Source of the DNA: Streptomyces sp. Je 1-332
GTDB taxonomy: Bacteria > Actinomycetota > Actinomycetes > Streptomycetales > Streptomycetaceae
Reading direction: 5' to 3'
NCBI RefSeq assembly: GCF_040730185.1
Contig: NZ_CP160402.1
Span: forward strand, 5,456,001 to 5,520,000
DNA: 64,000 nt
Every line of letters begins with the position of its first letter. Position 1 is the stretch's first letter. The position numbers were made by a program, and so were the translations under genes. The notes beneath the pieces are model-generated. The model saw only the letters and a list, made by a program, of their open reading frames with translations. It made no database searches and had not been told where the DNA came from. Of this stretch, positions 22,272 through 29,557 are shown one piece after another.

Positions 22272-23870
22272 ATGGACGTACTGCCCCTGGTGGCACTGAT
22301 CGCGGCGAGTGCGGCGGTGGCCGGAGCCGCCCGCTGGACCCCGGTGCCCGCGCCGCTGCTGCTCGTGGCGGTGGGTCTCGTCGCCGCGTACGTGCCCGGG
22401 GTGCCGGACTATCACCTGGACCCGCACATCGTGCTGCCGCTGATCCTGCCGCCCCTGCTGCACACCGCGGCCCTGGAGAGCTCGTACCTCGATCTGCGCG
22501 CCAACATCAGACCCGTGGCGCTGCTCTCGGTCGGGTACACGCTGTTCGCGACCCTCGCCGTCGGCTATCTCGCGTATCTGCTGATCCCCGATCTGCCGCT
22601 GACCGCCGCGCTGGTCCTCGGCGCGGTGATCGCGCCGCCGGACGCGGTGGCGGCCACAGCCATCGCGCGGAAGGTGGGGCTGCCGTCGCGGATCACCACG
22701 ATCCTGCAGGGCGAGTCGCTGGTGAACGACGCGACCGCGATCACCGCCTACAAGGTCGCCCTTGCGGCGGCGGTCGGCGAGGGCGCGAGCTGGGCGGGCG
22801 GCATCAGGGAGTTCCTGGTGGCCGCGGTCGGCGGGGTCGGTGTCGGGCTGATCCTCATGGTGCCGCTCCACTGGCTGCGCCGGCACATGAAGGAGGCGAT
22901 GCTCCAGAACACCCTCTCCTTGCTCATCCCCTTCGTCGCGTACGCGGCCGCCGAGCAGGTCGGCGCCTCCGGAGTGCTCGCGGTGGTCGTCGTCGCCCTG
23001 TTCCTCGGGCACCGCTCCTGGGAGGTCGACTTCGAGACGCGGCTCCAGGAAGCCGCCGTGTGGAAGGTCGTCGCGTTCATCCTGGAGTCGGCGGTCTTCG
23101 CGCTCATCGGTCTGCAACTGCCGCTCGTGCTCAAGGGGCTCGGCGAGTACAGCGGGCTCCAGGCGGCCTGGTATGCGCTGGGGGTCTTCTTCTTCGTCGT
23201 CCTCGTGCGCTTCGTGTGGTCGTATCCGGCGACCTATCTGCCGCGGCTCGTGTCGAAGCGCATCAAGGAGCGGGAGTCCGACATGGACTGGCGGCGGCCG
23301 CTGATCGTCAGCTGGGCCGGGATGCGCGGTGTGGTGTCGTTGGCGATCGCCTTCTCGATCCCGCTCGTCATGGACGACGGGGAGCCGTTCCCCGCGCGGA
23401 ACCTCGTCCTGTTCCTGACCTTCACCACGGTGATCGGCACGTTGGTCGTGCAGGGGCTCTCGCTGCCGTGGCTGATCGGGGTCCTGAAGCTTCCGGGGCG
23501 TGACGCGCAGGCGGAGACGCTCGCGGAGGCGCAGGCGCAGAACGCCGCCTCGCAGGCCGCGGAGCGGCGGGTGGACGAACTCATGCGGGACGAGCGCAAT
23601 CGCCTTCCAGAGCCCCTCCAGGACCGTCTGCGCACCGTCCTCGAGCGGCGCCGCAACTCCGTGTGGGAGCGGCTCGGTCAGTCCAACCCGGTGACGGGGG
23701 AGTCCGCCGACGACACCTACCGCAGGCTCGCCCGCGAGGCGATCGCCGCGGAGCGGGAGGTGTTCGTGACGATGCGGGACGAACGGCGCATCGACGACGA
23801 GATGATGCGGACGCTGTTGCGGAAGCTGGACCTTGAGGAGGCCGCGGCCTACCGGGAGGTCGAGGACTGA
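22272..23870 (+). CDS. Na+/H+ antiporter, CPA1 family
   Basis: A 532-residue cation/proton antiporter with about 12 hydrophobic helices and a long charged cytoplasmic tail from about residue 405. CPA1 hallmarks are visible: APPDAVAATAIARKVGLP and GESLVNDATAI, which carries the ion-binding Asn-Asp pair. It exports sodium or potassium in exchange for protons to keep pH and ion balance. The ATG has GGAGGG eight bases upstream. Its 3' end overlaps the convergent PLP-enzyme gene by 22 bases. Confidence 0.92.
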   Translation: MDVLPLVALIAASAAVAGAARWTPVPAPLLLVAVGLVAAYVPGVPDYHLDPHIVLPLILPPLLHTAALESSYLDLRANIRPVALLSVGYTLFATLAVGYLAYLLIPDLPLTAALVLGAVIAPPDAVAATAIARKVGLPSRITTILQGESLVNDATAITAYKVALAAAVGEGASWAGGIREFLVAAVGGVGVGLILMVPLHWLRRHMKEAMLQNTLSLLIPFVAYAAAEQVGASGVLAVVVVALFLGHRSWEVDFETRLQEAAVWKVVAFILESAVFALIGLQLPLVLKGLGEYSGLQAAWYALGVFFFVVLVRFVWSYPATYLPRLVSKRIKERESDMDWRRPLIVSWAGMRGVVSLAIAFSIPLVMDDGEPFPARNLVLFLTFTTVIGTLVVQGLSLPWLIGVLKLPGRDAQAETLAEAQAQNAASQAAERRVDELMRDERNRLPEPLQDRLRTVLERRRNSVWERLGQSNPVTGESADDTYRRLAREAIAAEREVFVTMRDERRIDDEMMRTLLRKLDLEEAAAYREVED

Positions 23871-24787
23871 GCCGTGGGCGCGGCCGCGTCCGTCGCGGTG
23901 ATCACGGCCGTGACGGTGCTGCCAGGGGGGAACGCGCCCTCTTCGGAGAGGGCTGTCAGCGCGTACAGGAGCTTGGCCACGTAGACGCGCTCCACGGGGA
24001 GGCCGTGCCGGTCCTCGAAGTCGTTCGCGAACGCGGTGAGTTCGGGGGGAGTGCGGGCGTACCCGCCGAAGTGGAAGCGCTCGTCGAGGTGCCAGTTGGC
24101 GGTGGGAGCGCCGAAGGTCCGCTGTTGCAGCGCCTGTATCTCGGGGCCGAGGAAGCCGCCCTTGAGCACCGGTATGCCGAGCGCGCGCTGGTGCGGGGCG
24201 AGGCCCGCGGCCATCCCGGCCAGGGTGCCGCCGGTGCCGCAGGCCACGGCCGCCGTGTGGGTGTGGTCGCGCAGTTCCTCGCCCAGGGCCGTACAGCCCT
24301 GTACGGCCAGGGAGTTGCTGCCCCCTTCGGGGATCACGTACGGGTCTTCGGCGCCTGTCGCGTGCAGGAGGGCGGTCAGGATCTCCGGCTCGGTCTTCCT
24401 GCGGTACGTCGCCCGGTCGATGAAGTGCAGGCGCATTCCGTCGGCCGCGCAGTGCGCGAGCGACGGGTTCAGGGGGCGGCCCGCGAGTTCGTCGCCGCGG
24501 ACCACGCCGATGGTCTCCAGGCCGAGGAGGCGGCCCGCCGCGGCGGTCGCCCGGAGGTGGTTGGAGTATGCGCCGCCGAAGGTCAGCAGGGCCTTGTGCC
24601 CCGCAGCGACGGCGGCGTCCAGGTTGAGGAAGAGCTTGCGGTACTTGTTGCCCGGGAGGTCCGGGTGGATCAGGTCGTCCCGCTTGAGTGTGAGGGTGAC
24701 GCCGTGCCGCGCGAACCGGTCGTCCTGGAGCTCCTGCAGCGGGGACGGGAGCCGGGGGCGCGGGGTGGTCGGCGGGGTGGTGCTCAC
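23849..24787 (-). CDS. ACC deaminase / D-cysteine desulfhydrase family PLP enzyme
   Basis: A 312-residue pyridoxal-phosphate enzyme of fold type II. The PLP lysine lies in LPGNKYRKL (about residue 50), the GGAYSNHLRATAA segment binds substrate carboxylate, and CGTGGTLAGMAAGL binds the phosphate. Such enzymes act on 1-aminocyclopropane-1-carboxylate or D-cysteine; the exact substrate cannot be told. Lacking the ACC-deaminase-specific residues in obvious form, D-cysteine desulfhydrase-type activity seems more likely. GTG start. Confidence 0.85.
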   Translation of the reverse strand: MSTTPPTTPRPRLPSPLQELQDDRFARHGVTLTLKRDDLIHPDLPGNKYRKLFLNLDAAVAAGHKALLTFGGAYSNHLRATAAAGRLLGLETIGVVRGDELAGRPLNPSLAHCAADGMRLHFIDRATYRRKTEPEILTALLHATGAEDPYVIPEGGSNSLAVQGCTALGEELRDHTHTAAVACGTGGTLAGMAAGLAPHQRALGIPVLKGGFLGPEIQALQQRTFGAPTANWHLDERFHFGGYARTPPELTAFANDFEDRHGLPVERVYVAKLLYALTALSEEGAFPPGSTVTAVITATDAAAPTAQSSTSR

Positions 24788-24853: not shown

Positions 24854-25444
24854 CTACTTGAGGCGCTCCTCGATACGCTCCCGCATGGCGTTCATGGTGA
24901 AGCCCTTGGGGTCGATCTTGCCCGGCTGCCATTCGAGGTGGCCGATCACCGACCGGTGGGTCCAGCCGTGGTGGCGGCAGATGGCCGCCGAGACCCTCTC
25001 GATGGCCTCCAGCTGCGCGTCGGGCCACGGATCCTCGCCGTCACCGAGGTTCTCGCACTCGAAGCCGTAGAAGTGGCGGTTTCCGTCGGTGTTCGACTCG
25101 TTGTCCGGCGGGAGCGCCTTCTCGGCGATGACCGCGCGCAGGACGTCGTCATCGCCTAGGCCCGCGTGGTTGGCGCGGCCGTACCCGACGAGGTGGACGC
25201 GGCCGTCCTTGGTGATCACGCCGTGGCAGAGCGGGCCGGGCAGCGACGCATACCCGTCCCGGCAGATCTCCACCGTCCGCGCGCTGCCCGACGTGACCGT
25301 GTGGTGGATCATCACGCCGTGCACGGGCCCCCACGGCCCCTTGTGGTTGCGGTTGTGGTGCGGCCAGTCGCCGACTTCGACGACCGTCACACCTTCGTCC
25401 TTGAGCACGTCCAGGAACTTGCCCGCGGACATGGGTGGGGCCAT
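24854..25444 (-). CDS. N-acetylmuramoyl-L-alanine amidase (Amidase_2/PGRP fold)
   Basis: A 196-residue peptidoglycan amidase with the zinc-binding histidine in GVMIHHTVT, a second zinc/catalytic region at VIGHLEWQPGKIDP and the conserved FYGFECEN strand. It cleaves the bond between MurNAc and L-Ala. No signal peptide is visible, so export or the site of action is unclear; related proteins in phages are endolysins, and a prophage origin of this single gene cannot be excluded. SD AAAGGAG precedes the ATG. Confidence 0.85.
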   Translation of the reverse strand: MAPPMSAGKFLDVLKDEGVTVVEVGDWPHHNRNHKGPWGPVHGVMIHHTVTSGSARTVEICRDGYASLPGPLCHGVITKDGRVHLVGYGRANHAGLGDDDVLRAVIAEKALPPDNESNTDGNRHFYGFECENLGDGEDPWPDAQLEAIERVSAAICRHHGWTHRSVIGHLEWQPGKIDPKGFTMNAMRERIEERLK

Positions 25445-25581: not shown

Positions 25582-25830
25582 TCAGCCGCGGTGGTCGCCG
25601 CTGTGCAGGAACGCGTCGCCGTTCGTCGCGATGTGGGCCTCGACCGCCTGCAGGGCCTGCTGCGTGGCCACGGGGGTTCCCGTGCCGTGCTGCTGTGCGT
25701 AATACGCGGCGCCCAGCTTCTTCAGAAGGTCGCTGCCCGTGCGCTGCGCCTGGACCTCGTCGATCTTCTGCTTGCCCTGATTGAGTCCGCGCTGCGCCTG
25801 TTCCTTGGCGCGATCCAGGAAGCCTGCCAT
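25582..25830 (-). CDS. Small soluble protein of unknown function
   Basis: An 82-residue protein, MAGFLDRAKEQAQRGLNQGK at its N-terminus, mostly amphipathic helix, with no membrane segment and no cysteine. Similar proteins occur widely in Streptomyces; no function is known to me. SD GGAGACGGCA lies before the ATG. It stands alone between the amidase and the divergent encapsulin gene. Confidence 0.75.
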   Translation of the reverse strand: MAGFLDRAKEQAQRGLNQGKQKIDEVQAQRTGSDLLKKLGAAYYAQQHGTGTPVATQQALQAVEAHIATNGDAFLHSGDHRG

Positions 25831-26073
25831 TGCCGTCTCCTACGGGGGTGCGGAGTGGTGCATATCGGTACGAACAGTATCGGCCGTTGCGTCCTGTTCA
25901 ACGGATGCACGGATCTTGGAGTTCCCCGTCCCTGGGGACCCCGTTCCTGGTACGCGGGTGAGTGCCCCGCTTTCGCCTGGTCCATTCCCGCTCGTTTGTG
26001 TAATGGCGCCGACACGCACCGTGCTGGAAGGGTTGTCGTCGCAGATCAGCGCTTGATCGGGAGGGCATAGCCA

Positions 26074-27480
26074 ATGTCGGTAGGCGAAGAGGTCCGTGCG
26101 GAACAGTCCGAGCAGCAGCAGAGCTTGGGTACGTCGGCCGCGCGGAATCTGGCCACCACCACCAAGTCCGCGCCGCAGATGCAGGAGATCAGCTCCCGCT
26201 GGCTCCTGCGGACGCTGCCGTGGGTGCAGGTGCAGGGCGGTACGTATCGAGTGAACCGGAGGTTGAGTTACTCGGTCGGCGACGGCCGTGTGACGTTCGT
26301 GAAGACCGGGGACCGGGTCCAGGTCATCCCCGCGGAGCTCGGCGAACTGCCGACCCTGCGGGACTACGAGGACGTCGAGGTCCTGGGGGAGCTGGCCCAG
26401 CGCTGCCAGCAGCGGGAGTTCGAGGCCGGCTCGGTCATCACCTCCTTCGGCAGCCAGGCCGACGAGGTGTACCTGCTCGCGCACGGCAGGGTCGAGAAGA
26501 TCGGCACCGGGCCGTACGGGGACGACACGGTCCTCGGGACCCTCGCCGACGGGGCCTACTTCGGCGAGCAGGCACTGCTCGACCCGGAGGCCATCTGGGA
26601 GTACACGACGCGCGCGGTGACCGCGTGCACCGTGCTCACCCTGCCGCGCCAGGACCTGGAGCAGGTCGCCGAGCGCACGGAATCGCTGCGTGAGCACCTG
26701 AGGCGGCTGCGCTCCATCCCGGCCCAGCGGACCAACAAGTTCGGCGAATCGCCCATCGACCTGTCCGCGGGACACATCGGCGAGGCCGTGCTGCCGGGCA
26801 CGTTCGTCGACTACGAGTCAGCGCCGCGTGAGTACGAACTGAGCGTCGCCCAGACCGTTCTGCGCGTCCACACGCGCGTGGCCGACCTCTACAACCAGCC
26901 GATGAACCAGACCGAGCAGCAGTTGCGGCTCACGGTCGAGGCGCTCAAGGAGCGCCAGGAGCACGAGCTGATCAACAACCGCGAGTTCGGGCTGCTCAAC
27001 AACTGTGAGTACGAGCAGCGGCTGCAGCCCCACGAGGGCGTACCGAGCCCGGACGACATGGACGAACTGCTCAGCCGCAGGCGGGGGTCGAAGCTCTTCC
27101 TGGCCCACCCGCGCGCGATCTCCGCTTTCGGCCGCGAGCTCAACAAACGCGGGCTCGTGCCGGAGACGATCGACATGGGGGGCCACCGCATCCCCACCTG
27201 GCGCGGGGTGCCCATCTACCCGTGCAACAAGATCCCGGTCACCGAGGCCCGCACCACCTCGATCATCTGTATGCGTACGGGCGAGGAGGAGCAGGGCGTC
27301 GTCGGCCTGCACCAGGTCGGCCTCCCGGACGAGATCGAGCCGAGCCTGTCGGTGCGCTTCATGGGGATCAGCGAGCAGGCGATCATCTCGTACCTGGTGT
27401 CGACCTACTACTCCGCGGCGGTCCTGGTGCCCGACGCGCTGGGCGTGCTGGAGAACGTCGAGATCGGCCGCTGGCGATGA
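26074..27480 (+). CDS. Family 2B encapsulin shell protein with cyclic-nucleotide-binding domain (EshA-like)
   Basis: A 468-residue protein related to EshA of Streptomyces. After an N-terminal arm (1-60) a cyclic-nucleotide-binding domain is inserted (about 100-205, with [20 protein letters not shown]), followed by the HK97-type shell fold, including the conserved A-domain stretch [20 protein letters not shown] and the C-terminus [11 protein letters not shown]. Family 2B encapsulins assemble into icosahedral protein cages that enclose enzymes. The next gene, a polyprenyl diphosphate synthase, is one of the two enzyme classes found beside this shell type, so it is the likely cargo. SD GGGAGG lies nine bases before the ATG. 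The CNB domain suggests gating or binding of a nucleotide, not shown here. Confidence 0.88.
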
Positions 27481-27576
27481 GGCCGTGTCTGTGGGCGCGC
27501 CGCCGGGTACACCCCATCCGTACGCGCCCGCAGGCCCAGGAAACGCCACCGTCCGCATCCTCCCCGGGGTGAGTCC

Positions 27577-28656
27577 ATGACGGACACGACGACGGACATG
27601 ACCACGGACATGACGGAGCCACAGGAGCAGGCGGGGCACGAATCGTCCGAGGCGGTGGAGATCCTGGCGTCGGCGCGGGCGTGCGTCGACCCGGAGCTGC
27701 GCCGGGCGATCGAGACCCTTCCCGGAGTGCTGCGCCGCGTCGCGCTCTACCACTTCGGCTGGGAACACGCGGACGGCACACCGGCGGCCGGGCACGCGGG
27801 CAAGGCGATCAGGCCCGCGCTCGTGCTCGCCGCGGTGGGCGCCCTCGGCGGGGACCAGGCCCTGGCCGTCCGGGCCGCGGCGGCGGTGGAGCTGACCCAC
27901 AACTTCACCCTGCTGCACGACGACGTCATCGACCGCGACACCACCCGCAGGCACCGGCCCACCGCATGGACCGTGTTCGGTGAACCCGACGCGATCCTGG
28001 CCGGTGACGCGCTCCAGGCGCTGGCGCAGCGGCTGCTCGCCGAGGACCCGCACCCCGGGGCCCCGGCGGCGGCCGCCCGGCTCGCCTCCTGTGTGGTGGA
28101 GCTCTGCGCGGGCCAGCAGGCGGACGGCGCGTTCGAGCGGCGCGGGCCCGACGAGGTCACGCTCGACGAATGCCTCGCCATGGCCGAGGCCAAGACGGGG
28201 GCGCTGCTGGGCTGCGCCTGCGCGGTGGGGGCGTTGTACGCGGGGGCGGGGCGCAGCGAGGTGGACGCGCTCGACGGGTTCGGCCGTGAGGCGGGTCTCG
28301 CCTTCCAGCTCATCGACGACGTGATCGGCATCTGGGGCGATCCGGGGCACACGGGCAAGCCGGCCCGCGCCGACCTCGCCGCCCGCAAGAAGTCCCTGCC
28401 GGTGGTCGCGGCGCTGGCCTCCGGCACCCCGGCCGGCGCGGAACTGGCCGAGTTGTACGGACACCCGTCGGCCGACGGCGACCTGGACCGCATGGCGCAC
28501 GCCGTCGAGACGGCGGGCGGCAGGGACTGGGCGCTGCTGCACGCGGGCGACCGGATGTCCCGCGCGATCAACCAGCTCGCCGGCGCGGTGCCTGTCCCGG
28601 AGGCGGCGGGCAGCCTGCTGGCGCTCGCGGAGTTCGTGACACGGCGCACGCACTGA
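27577..28656 (+). CDS. Polyprenyl diphosphate synthase, probable encapsulin cargo
   Basis: A 359-residue all-trans prenyl diphosphate synthase. The two Asp-rich motifs are DDVID (residues 115-119) and DDVIG (247-251), which bind magnesium and the allylic diphosphate; KAIRPALVL (about 76-84) is the substrate-binding Lys/Arg segment. It condenses IPP with an allylic diphosphate; chain length is not predictable. The first 25 or so residues are Thr/Asp/Glu-rich, repetitive (TTDM twice) and disordered, the kind of extension that carries cargo-loading motifs in family 2 encapsulins. It starts 96 bases after the shell gene on the same strand. Confidence 0.88.
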   Translation: MTDTTTDMTTDMTEPQEQAGHESSEAVEILASARACVDPELRRAIETLPGVLRRVALYHFGWEHADGTPAAGHAGKAIRPALVLAAVGALGGDQALAVRAAAAVELTHNFTLLHDDVIDRDTTRRHRPTAWTVFGEPDAILAGDALQALAQRLLAEDPHPGAPAAAARLASCVVELCAGQQADGAFERRGPDEVTLDECLAMAEAKTGALLGCACAVGALYAGAGRSEVDALDGFGREAGLAFQLIDDVIGIWGDPGHTGKPARADLAARKKSLPVVAALASGTPAGAELAELYGHPSADGDLDRMAHAVETAGGRDWALLHAGDRMSRAINQLAGAVPVPEAAGSLLALAEFVTRRTH

Positions 28657-28804: not shown

Positions 28805-28903
28805 GCCCGTGCGCGGGGGACCCGATCACCTAGGCTGCACCCGTAGCAACCAGCGGGGACGTAAGCGCAGTTGAGCGCGGGCGAGGGGCAAGGGGGCGGG
28901 GCT

Positions 28904-29557
28904 GTGGGCGTAGTCATCCGGAGGGCCGGGGAGAGCGACAGAGCGGACGCGGTCCGGCTGCTCGACGTGGCGTTCCAGAACGATCCGGTGAGCAGCTGGG
29001 TCTTCCCCGGCGAGGAGGACCGCCGCCGCAGGCACGGCGCTCTGATGGACGCCTTCTACGACCTGGCACTGAGTCAGGGCTACGTGGACATCGCGGAGGA
29101 CGGCTCGGCCGTCGCGCTGTGGTGGTCCGTCCCCGCGGGCGGAGACGCGGACGCGGAGGCCGGCGCGGACGCCAGCGGCGAAGAGGGGCCCGCACAGCTG
29201 CGCGCGGCCATCGACCCGGACAACGCGCGGATCGAGGAGATCGGCAGGCTGACCGGCGAGGCGCACCCCACCGACCGGCCCCACCAGTATCTGCACATGG
29301 TCGGCGTGAGCCCGGAGCGGCAGGGCGAGGGGCTCGGCTCCGCGCTGATCGGCGCCGTGCTCGAACGCTGCGACAGGGAAGGGCTGCACGCGTATCTGGA
29401 GGCGAGCAGCAGCCGCAGCCGCGCGCTGTACACGCGGCTCGGATTCCATTTCACCGGCAAGGCCATAGACCTGCCGGACGGCCCGCACCTGTGGCCGATG
29501 TGGCGGGAACCCCGGCCTTTCGGCACGGACGGCGGCGACACCGACCGATTCGCATGA
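28904..29557 (+). CDS. GNAT-family N-acetyltransferase
   Basis: A 217-residue acetyltransferase with the acetyl-CoA pyrophosphate loop VSPERQGEGLGSALI and the C-terminal strand YLEASSSRSRALYTRLGF. It moves an acetyl group from acetyl-CoA to an unknown amine. GTG at 28904 with AAGGGGG upstream is preferred; a TTG at 28871 is possible. A linker of Asp/Ala/Glu repeats around residue 85 is unusual but common in high-GC genes. It lies after the terminator of the encapsulin operon, so co-transcription with it is doubtful. Confidence 0.88.
   Translation: MGVVIRRAGESDRADAVRLLDVAFQNDPVSSWVFPGEEDRRRRHGALMDAFYDLALSQGYVDIAEDGSAVALWWSVPAGGDADAEAGADASGEEGPAQLRAAIDPDNARIEEIGRLTGEAHPTDRPHQYLHMVGVSPERQGEGLGSALIGAVLERCDREGLHAYLEASSSRSRALYTRLGFHFTGKAIDLPDGPHLWPMWREPRPFGTDGGDTDRFA

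Follow-up and report, generated by a model that had tools for sequence, protein, structure and literature searches.

A family 2B encapsulin locus with one shell gene in Streptomyces sp. Je 1-332 and a polyprenyl diphosphate synthase as its likely cargo

We analyzed a 64,000-nucleotide stretch of DNA from Streptomyces sp. Je 1-332 (NCBI RefSeq assembly GCF_040730185.1, contig NZ_CP160402.1, forward-strand positions 5,456,001 to 5,520,000; hereafter the window, whose numbering is used unless stated otherwise), which sits inside a genome of 8.27 Mb in one contig. Two adjacent genes at 26074..28656 had been described, in a reading of the sequence alone, as encoding an encapsulin shell and its probable polyprenyl synthase cargo. 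By sequence assignment, the first is securely a family 2B encapsulin shell gene and the second securely belongs to the NF041169 cargo family; their presence at these open reading frames (ORFs) is confirmed and lies far above chance. We abbreviate the polyprenyl-transferase-type synthase as PT and the cyclic-nucleotide-binding-type domain of the shell as CBD or CNBD; model confidence is given as pLDDT (predicted local distance difference test). The locus comprises the following features.

26060..26065, plus strand: Shine-Dalgarno-like GGAGGG 5′ of the shell gene, by direct reading
26074..27480, plus strand: family 2B encapsulin shell gene, 468 amino acids (aa), EshB-type by elimination (NF041163, PF19307, PDB 9bhu)
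26125..26160, plus strand: shell N-arm motif, residues 18–29, resembling the published terpene-cyclase motif GPTGLGTSAAR (PMC8346489)
26413..26676, plus strand: CBD, residues 114–201
26719..27471, plus strand: HK97-type shell domain, residues 216–466, with RRR at 335–337 (PF19307; aligned with 9bhu and with the shells of S. lydicus)
27481..27576, plus strand: gap of 96 bases from shell to synthase
27577..28656, plus strand: trans-prenyl-diphosphate synthase, probable cargo, 359 aa (NF041169; modeled at pLDDT 89.8, with 3nf2 as the top fold match)
27577..27639, plus strand: disordered N-terminal tail of the synthase, residues 1–21 (pLDDT <50; no GLGT or RR.PIG-like motif)
27919..27933, plus strand: first Asp-rich motif DDVID, residues 115–119 (D115, D116, and D119 invariant in 25 sequences)
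28315..28329, plus strand: second Asp-rich motif DDVIG, residues 247–251, DDxxG and not DDxxD (D247, D248, and G251 invariant in 25 sequences)

The shell protein scores 774.3 bits against NF041163 (“family 2B encapsulin nanocompartment shell protein”; curated cut-off 400 bits). Within it, a cyclic nucleotide monophosphate (cNMP)-binding domain (PF00027, 65.9 bits, residues 114–201) precedes an SrpI-like domain (PF19307, 452.8 bits, residues 216–466), the order expected of a family 2B shell with its insertion in the E-loop ahead of the main HK97 segment, and the protein is co-linear with PDB entry 9bhu over residues 7–467 (E 1e-201), which bears out the proposal of a cNMP-type domain joined to a family 2B shell. 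The RRR of the shell domain is invariant in 35 sequences and occupies the position that an excerpt of PMC12407261 gives as a diagnostic motif. A promoter scan limited to the sigma-70 consensus gave nothing, and a terminator scan stayed at chance level.

The synthase scores 481.7 bits against NF041169 (“family 2 encapsulin nanocompartment cargo protein polyprenyl transferase”; cut-off 450 bits) and 186.9 bits against PF00348, in agreement with its first description as a polyprenyl diphosphate synthase; the next best model, that of the geranylgeranyl diphosphate (GGPP) synthase IdsB, gives 352 bits, under its cut-off of 475 bits. The genome contains eight polyprenyl-synthase matches and four CNBD matches, and its hopene-cluster paralogue of the synthase reaches 411.9 bits with NF041169, under the cut-off. 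Since D115, D116, D119, D247, and D248 are invariant in 25 relatives, the synthase should be catalytic, and a product of C15–C20 is a guess based on the family. Shell and partner together are a plain member of the class published by Andreas and Giessen in 2021 (PMC8346489); the excerpts of that paper used here count 900 PT-carrying operons of family 2B, of which 888 are in Actinobacteria, treat the PT as putative cargo, and describe in it a disordered N-terminal domain of 50–100 residues for which they report no conserved targeting motif.

To follow the pairing across genomes, we used two samples of PT loci, one of 78 loci from other genomes with ≈6 kb of flank on each side and one of 80 named loci that are the best relatives of the synthase, all from Streptomyces, whose genomes partly overlap those of the first. 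A shell gene lies directly upstream on the same strand in 77 of the 78 loci of sample 1 and directly upstream in 77 of the 80 of sample 2; in the three shell-less loci of the latter, the available sequence starts 0, 109, and 184 bases ahead of the PT frame. Among the 121 Streptomyces genomes sampled, a PT exceeds its cut-off in 93 and a 2B shell does so in 119; 8 of 246 genomes drawn from the phylum have such a PT, all 8 of the same genus. We also assembled a shell set, in which 161 sequences were found and nine with an identical 440-residue end were removed, leaving 152, all from Streptomyces: 86 PT-linked, 31 cyclase-linked, 26 two-shell, and 9 other, the non-PT shells being chosen among the matches listed. 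The cyclase-linked class was defined by a single 2-methylisoborneol (2-MIB) synthase query that missed two-domain cyclases, which adjoin the shells of L169, L036, and L037, initially labeled “none.” A FastTree phylogeny of the 152 shells groups all 86 PT-linked sequences in a single 89-tip clade (support 0.956); three non-PT tips are nested in it, and for two of these the local support is weak. Because the PT-linked shells form one clade, the pairing is old. Gene identities, pairing, and clade are direct observations.

Assembly, packaging, product, and gating we infer as follows. The locus is a family 2B encapsulin locus of the PT type with one shell gene, most likely passed on vertically in Streptomyces. 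Its shell protein would self-assemble into an icosahedral T=1 particle of ≈28 nm, a form reported for relatives in family 2B, and the CNBD-type domains would sit above the two-fold pores. The synthase would most likely be held inside and could make a short-to-medium prenyl diphosphate from isopentenyl diphosphate (IPP) and an allylic starter entering via the pores, and the domain over the pore most likely senses no cyclic nucleotide, binding another small ligand or acting as a structural lid. Taken whole, this explanation appears reasonably probable to us. Packaging in the shell lumen, considered separately, is likely by gene pairing and analogy, and it is favored because the pairing is conserved, with the shell directly upstream in all but one of the sample 1 loci.

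The genes flanking the pair are shared among relatives, as counted over 77 loci.

22272..23870, plus strand: Na+/H+ exchanger (PF00999; match in 69/77 loci)
23849..24787, minus strand: pyridoxal phosphate (PLP)-dependent enzyme resembling 1-aminocyclopropane-1-carboxylate (ACC) deaminase (PF00291; TIGR01275 93 bits, under cut-off; match in 73/77 loci)
24854..25444, minus strand: N-acetylmuramoyl-L-alanine amidase type (PF01510; match in 53/77 loci)
28871..29557, plus strand: GNAT acetyltransferase (PF00583; match in 51/77 loci)

Since these neighbors recur in most of the 77 loci, vertical inheritance of the locus at a fixed place in Streptomyces fits. An 82-aa ORF upstream of the shell gene (25582–25830, minus strand) has no Pfam or NCBIfam match. 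The pair had also been said not to stand in a terpene cluster, and this holds for the adjacent genes; however, the nearest of the five PF19086-type terpene cyclase matches in the genome is an epi-isozizaene synthase beside a bifunctional albaflavenone P450 (genome 5452304–5454804; L310:2304–4804), and the two genes end ≈27 to 29 kb before the shell gene, just outside the window.

The N-terminal tail of the synthase had been read as Thr/Asp/Glu-rich and disordered, and the disorder is upheld by the model; the tail is short, though, with pLDDT <50 at residues 1–21 only, in place of the 50–100 disordered residues published for the class (excerpt of PMC8346489). To compare tails, we took in-frame translations starting at the shell stop, which may therefore contain untranslated bases; 155 were taken, 4 lacked the anchor and 6 were duplicates, leaving 145 distinct PT tails. 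An RR.PIG-like motif occurs in 20 of the 145 (shuffle mean 1.0, maximum 4) and its strict form in 8, counts that overstate the number of independent events because kin sequences are counted separately; there is a weak indication that the motif exceeds chance in some clades, and it is absent from the window synthase. MT[DE]T is found in 49 of the 145. In some relatives (L188, L198, L203, L205, L118, and L134) a GTG start candidate for the PT overlaps the shell stop (GTGA); such starts would lengthen the PT tails, and several of these carry an RRGPIG/RRSPIG-like motif. As a control, we examined 20 hopene-cluster paralogue loci together with the paralogue locus of this genome (L063). HpnE and squalene-hopene cyclase adjoin the paralogue gene in L063, an HpnE-like gene lies upstream of the paralogue in 20 of the 20 other loci, and the shell is absent from all 21. 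The anchor was found in 18 of the 21 control paralogues, with starts that follow a Shine-Dalgarno-like sequence 16–31 residues ahead of it (one also at 58) and tails rich in Thr, Ser, and Asp; the window synthase has 29 residues ahead of the same anchor (Leu30). As the shell-less hopene-cluster paralogues have tails similar in length and composition, neither property is a mark of cargo.

Several of our results, and one from the literature, weigh against a packaged synthase in an assembled shell. The cyclase-type cargo motif [GS]LGT[AS] occurs in 0 of the 145 PT tails, the tail of the window synthase has no RR.PIG-like motif, and it is no longer than the tails of paralogues outside shell loci. 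The full-length model of the shell is poor (pLDDT 48.4), and for this reason the HK97 fold is assigned by homology to the solved 9bhu. Among the relatives, L088 has an intact PT (490.2 bits, NF041169) without a shell, L157 a shell with one 50-residue PT match, a remnant, and L143 a shell with no PT match, each with the exchanger, the PLP enzyme, and the amidase present; L088 is the exception in sample 1. The PT-clade shell of L169 (592–4644) adjoins, at a different chromosomal place and with the shared neighbors absent, a downstream two-domain terpene cyclase of 775 aa (NF041168, 1175.8 bits, just under the cut-off of 1200). Either gene can therefore persist alone, and a PT-clade shell can have another partner. 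Finally, eshA is reported as not required for 2-MIB synthesis in an excerpt of PMC6428758, so that the product may also form without a shell.

These points bear most directly on an explanation in which the synthase is not lumen cargo at all, shell and synthase being a co-inherited pair that shares regulation only, with the enzyme cytosolic or bound to the exterior of the shell. The missing shared targeting motif, the short paralogue-like tail, and the three loci with one gene alone speak for it. It is countered by the 77 of 78 loci that keep both genes adjacent, by the few losses to be expected across a genus, and by the naming of terpene cyclases among encapsulated encapsulin cargo in the introduction of PMC12407261, and we regard it as possible although doubtful.

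Packaging inside a self-assembled shell remains the explanation we prefer. Three sites in the CBD bear on the ligand of the shell domain.

26563..26568, plus strand: Gly164-Glu165 of the nucleotide cassette, kept; Glu or Asp in PT-linked relatives
26596..26598, plus strand: Trp175 at the place of the phosphate-binding Arg of CRP (hhalign to E. coli CRP)
26611..26613, plus strand: Arg180, a class marker of PT-linked shells and not the phosphate Arg (86/86 PT-linked; Thr in 25/31 cyclase-linked)

The CBD is modeled with a confident CNBD fold, the HK97 part having low confidence, and among the 50 matches listed by VIA-align for the CBD model, all are to CNBDs or to 9bhu. In CRP, the Arg-Ser of the cassette contacts the phosphate of the cyclic nucleotide. 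When PT-linked CBDs are aligned to E. coli CRP in one sequence-profile alignment, the Gly-Glu is kept and Trp175-Glu176 stands opposite this Arg-Ser. Trp occupies the position of the CRP Arg in 150 of the 152 shells (86/86 PT-linked, 29/31 cyclase-linked, 26/26 two-shell, and 9/9 other) and also in 77 of 77 shells of sample 2, and this residue change is again observed directly. The commonest residues nearby differ by class, with Ile174, Glu176, and Arg180 in PT-linked and Arg174, Asp176, and Thr180 in cyclase-linked shells. The co-occurrence of G[ED] and Arg in 86/86 PT-linked and 0/31 cyclase-linked shells was the origin of a reading in which Arg180 binds the phosphate; we dropped it, together with the idea that PT shells retain cNMP binding, since in the CRP profile alignment Arg180 falls on the next strand (VRAKTACEV in CRP); Arg180 is a class marker only.

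Because Trp replaces the phosphate Arg of CRP, in agreement with the published lack of cNMP binding, a canonical cyclic-nucleotide ligand of the shell domain is unlikely; an excerpt of Dutcher et al. 2025 (PMC12407261), citing a preprint by Andreas and Giessen, states that cyclic-nucleotide binding by the inserted 2B domain had been shown to be absent. On the simplest reading of the alignments, phosphate binding was lost and a conserved residue took the place of the Arg, which points to another ligand or a structural role. Gating of the compartment by a cyclic nucleotide is unlikely as well: a true cAMP/cGMP sensor over the pore, which would be compatible with packaging, could draw on the confidently predicted CNBD fold, the Gly-Glu kept in the window shell, and a review that, in an excerpt, terms EshA a cAMP-binding protein, yet it is opposed by the near-invariant Trp and by the published statement on binding, and we consider it very unlikely.

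The N-arm of the shell touches on how cyclases may be loaded. The shell N-arm LGT[AS]AARNLATT and GPTGLGTSAAR, the candidate motif published for terpene cyclases, have LGT[SA]AAR in common, as noted for the window shell and the cyclase loci L144, L162, L170, and L174; the cyclase cargo peptide may copy the arm of the shell itself. Among PT-linked shells, 79 of 86 matched an N-arm motif of this kind, as did 24 of the 31 that are cyclase-linked, and a GL[GS]T motif is present in 27 of the 31 cyclases found. Genome-wide, LGT[SA]AAR matches the two shells plus a single unrelated ORF. A search with GP[ST]GLGT for a hidden second cargo found only the 2-MIB synthase beside its own shell, and that candidate was rejected. 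A wider proposal, which we hold to be rather improbable, would make the 2B domain a rebuilt sensor, its Arg exchanged for a near-invariant Trp mostly followed by an acidic residue, with pores gated by a non-nucleotide ligand; the pocket edge at 174, 176, and 180 would be cargo-class-specific, each class answering to its own metabolite, and the cyclase motif GLGTSAAR would copy the LGTSAAR of the shell N-arm and dock there, PTs being loaded in another way.

A further possibility, in which a terpene cyclase is loaded as well or the second 2B shell of the genome is mixed in, so that a chain maker and a cyclase encoded 2.25 Mb apart share one compartment, is suggested by the two 2B shell genes of the genome, by the co-assembly of two 2B shell proteins published for S. 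lydicus (excerpt of PMC12407261), and by the cyclase neighbor of the PT-clade shell in L169, but is highly improbable given the single GP[ST]GLGT match beside its own shell and the distribution of 2-MIB synthase over 121 genomes, 32 of 93 with and 6 of 28 without a PT locus (Fisher p = 0.25; 38 orthologue-grade hits of 75% identity or more, not all 58 hits). We accordingly discarded an association of the PT locus with the 2-MIB locus.

The locus is an ordinary, well-conserved member of a common type that has already been described, and what is new here is mainly evidence on what the sensor domain and the enzyme tail can and cannot do. Two tempting assumptions, that a cyclic nucleotide gates the shell and that the tail proves the synthase to be cargo, are weakened; Trp175 and the class-specific positions 174, 176, and 180 are singled out as residues of interest. 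The window locus offers a clean single-shell case, and the loci with shell or synthase alone make the packaging question addressable by strain comparison. An open-literature search on encapsulins with terpene and prenyl topics, by title and start of abstract, found no paper devoted to a PT-type shell.

We assign the pair by elimination to EshB (SCO5249) and SCO5250 of S. coelicolor, an orthology inferred because just two 2B shells of this genome exceed the cut-off and the other one (C1:7732815–7734164) precedes a 2-MIB synthase (NF041167, 504.9 bits), as is the case for EshA; in an excerpt of PMC6428758, S. venezuelae eshA is in an operon with mibA-mibB. EshB is described in part of PMC3878966 as the EshA paralogue of S. 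coelicolor, with a promoter that goes up during development in the parent and in a whiH mutant. Changes in SCO5249 transcript from one mycelial stage to another are tabulated in PMC3610822 (log2 2.9, 3.2, and 2.4), an excerpt of PMC13170358 gives SCO5249 as a possible target of negative AtrA regulation, and SCO5250 is given in part of PMC7494193 as 4.4-fold higher on glucose, grouped with isoprenoid-pathway genes.

Among systems of known structure, the S. griseus shell 9bhu, which we take to be a 2-MIB-linked shell, has the same domain order as the window shell, with which it is co-linear over the range given above, and its CBD reads ..TATAETS.. where the window shell reads ..TTRAVTA.., the same Thr-for-Arg180 difference seen in 25 of the 31 cyclase-linked shells. 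In both sequence and fold, the synthase is matched best by the S. coelicolor polyprenyl synthetase 3nf2 (43% identity, TM 0.88/0.93), which has the same DDxxG second motif and looks, by eye, almost identical to this genome's hopene-cluster paralogue, which adjoins no shell. The two-component 2B shells of S. lydicus described in excerpts of Dutcher et al. 2025 (PMC12407261; 9bje and 9bix) share family and domain plan with the window shell but have two shell genes where there is one here: the window does not hold two shell genes within 10 kb, the other over-cut-off 2B shell of the genome lying 2.25 Mb away. The RRR of the window shell lies at diagnostic motif 1, which reads RRRK in Sl-Enc2, which forms T=1 shells of ≈28 nm alone, and TVWK in Sl-Enc1, which does not, according to the same excerpts. 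Closest overall is the PT operon type itself as outlined in parts of PMC8346489, in which a shell with an inserted cNMP-type domain likewise stands beside a polyprenyl synthase, and from which this locus differs in its ≈21 disordered tail residues, not 50–100, and in having a single shell gene.

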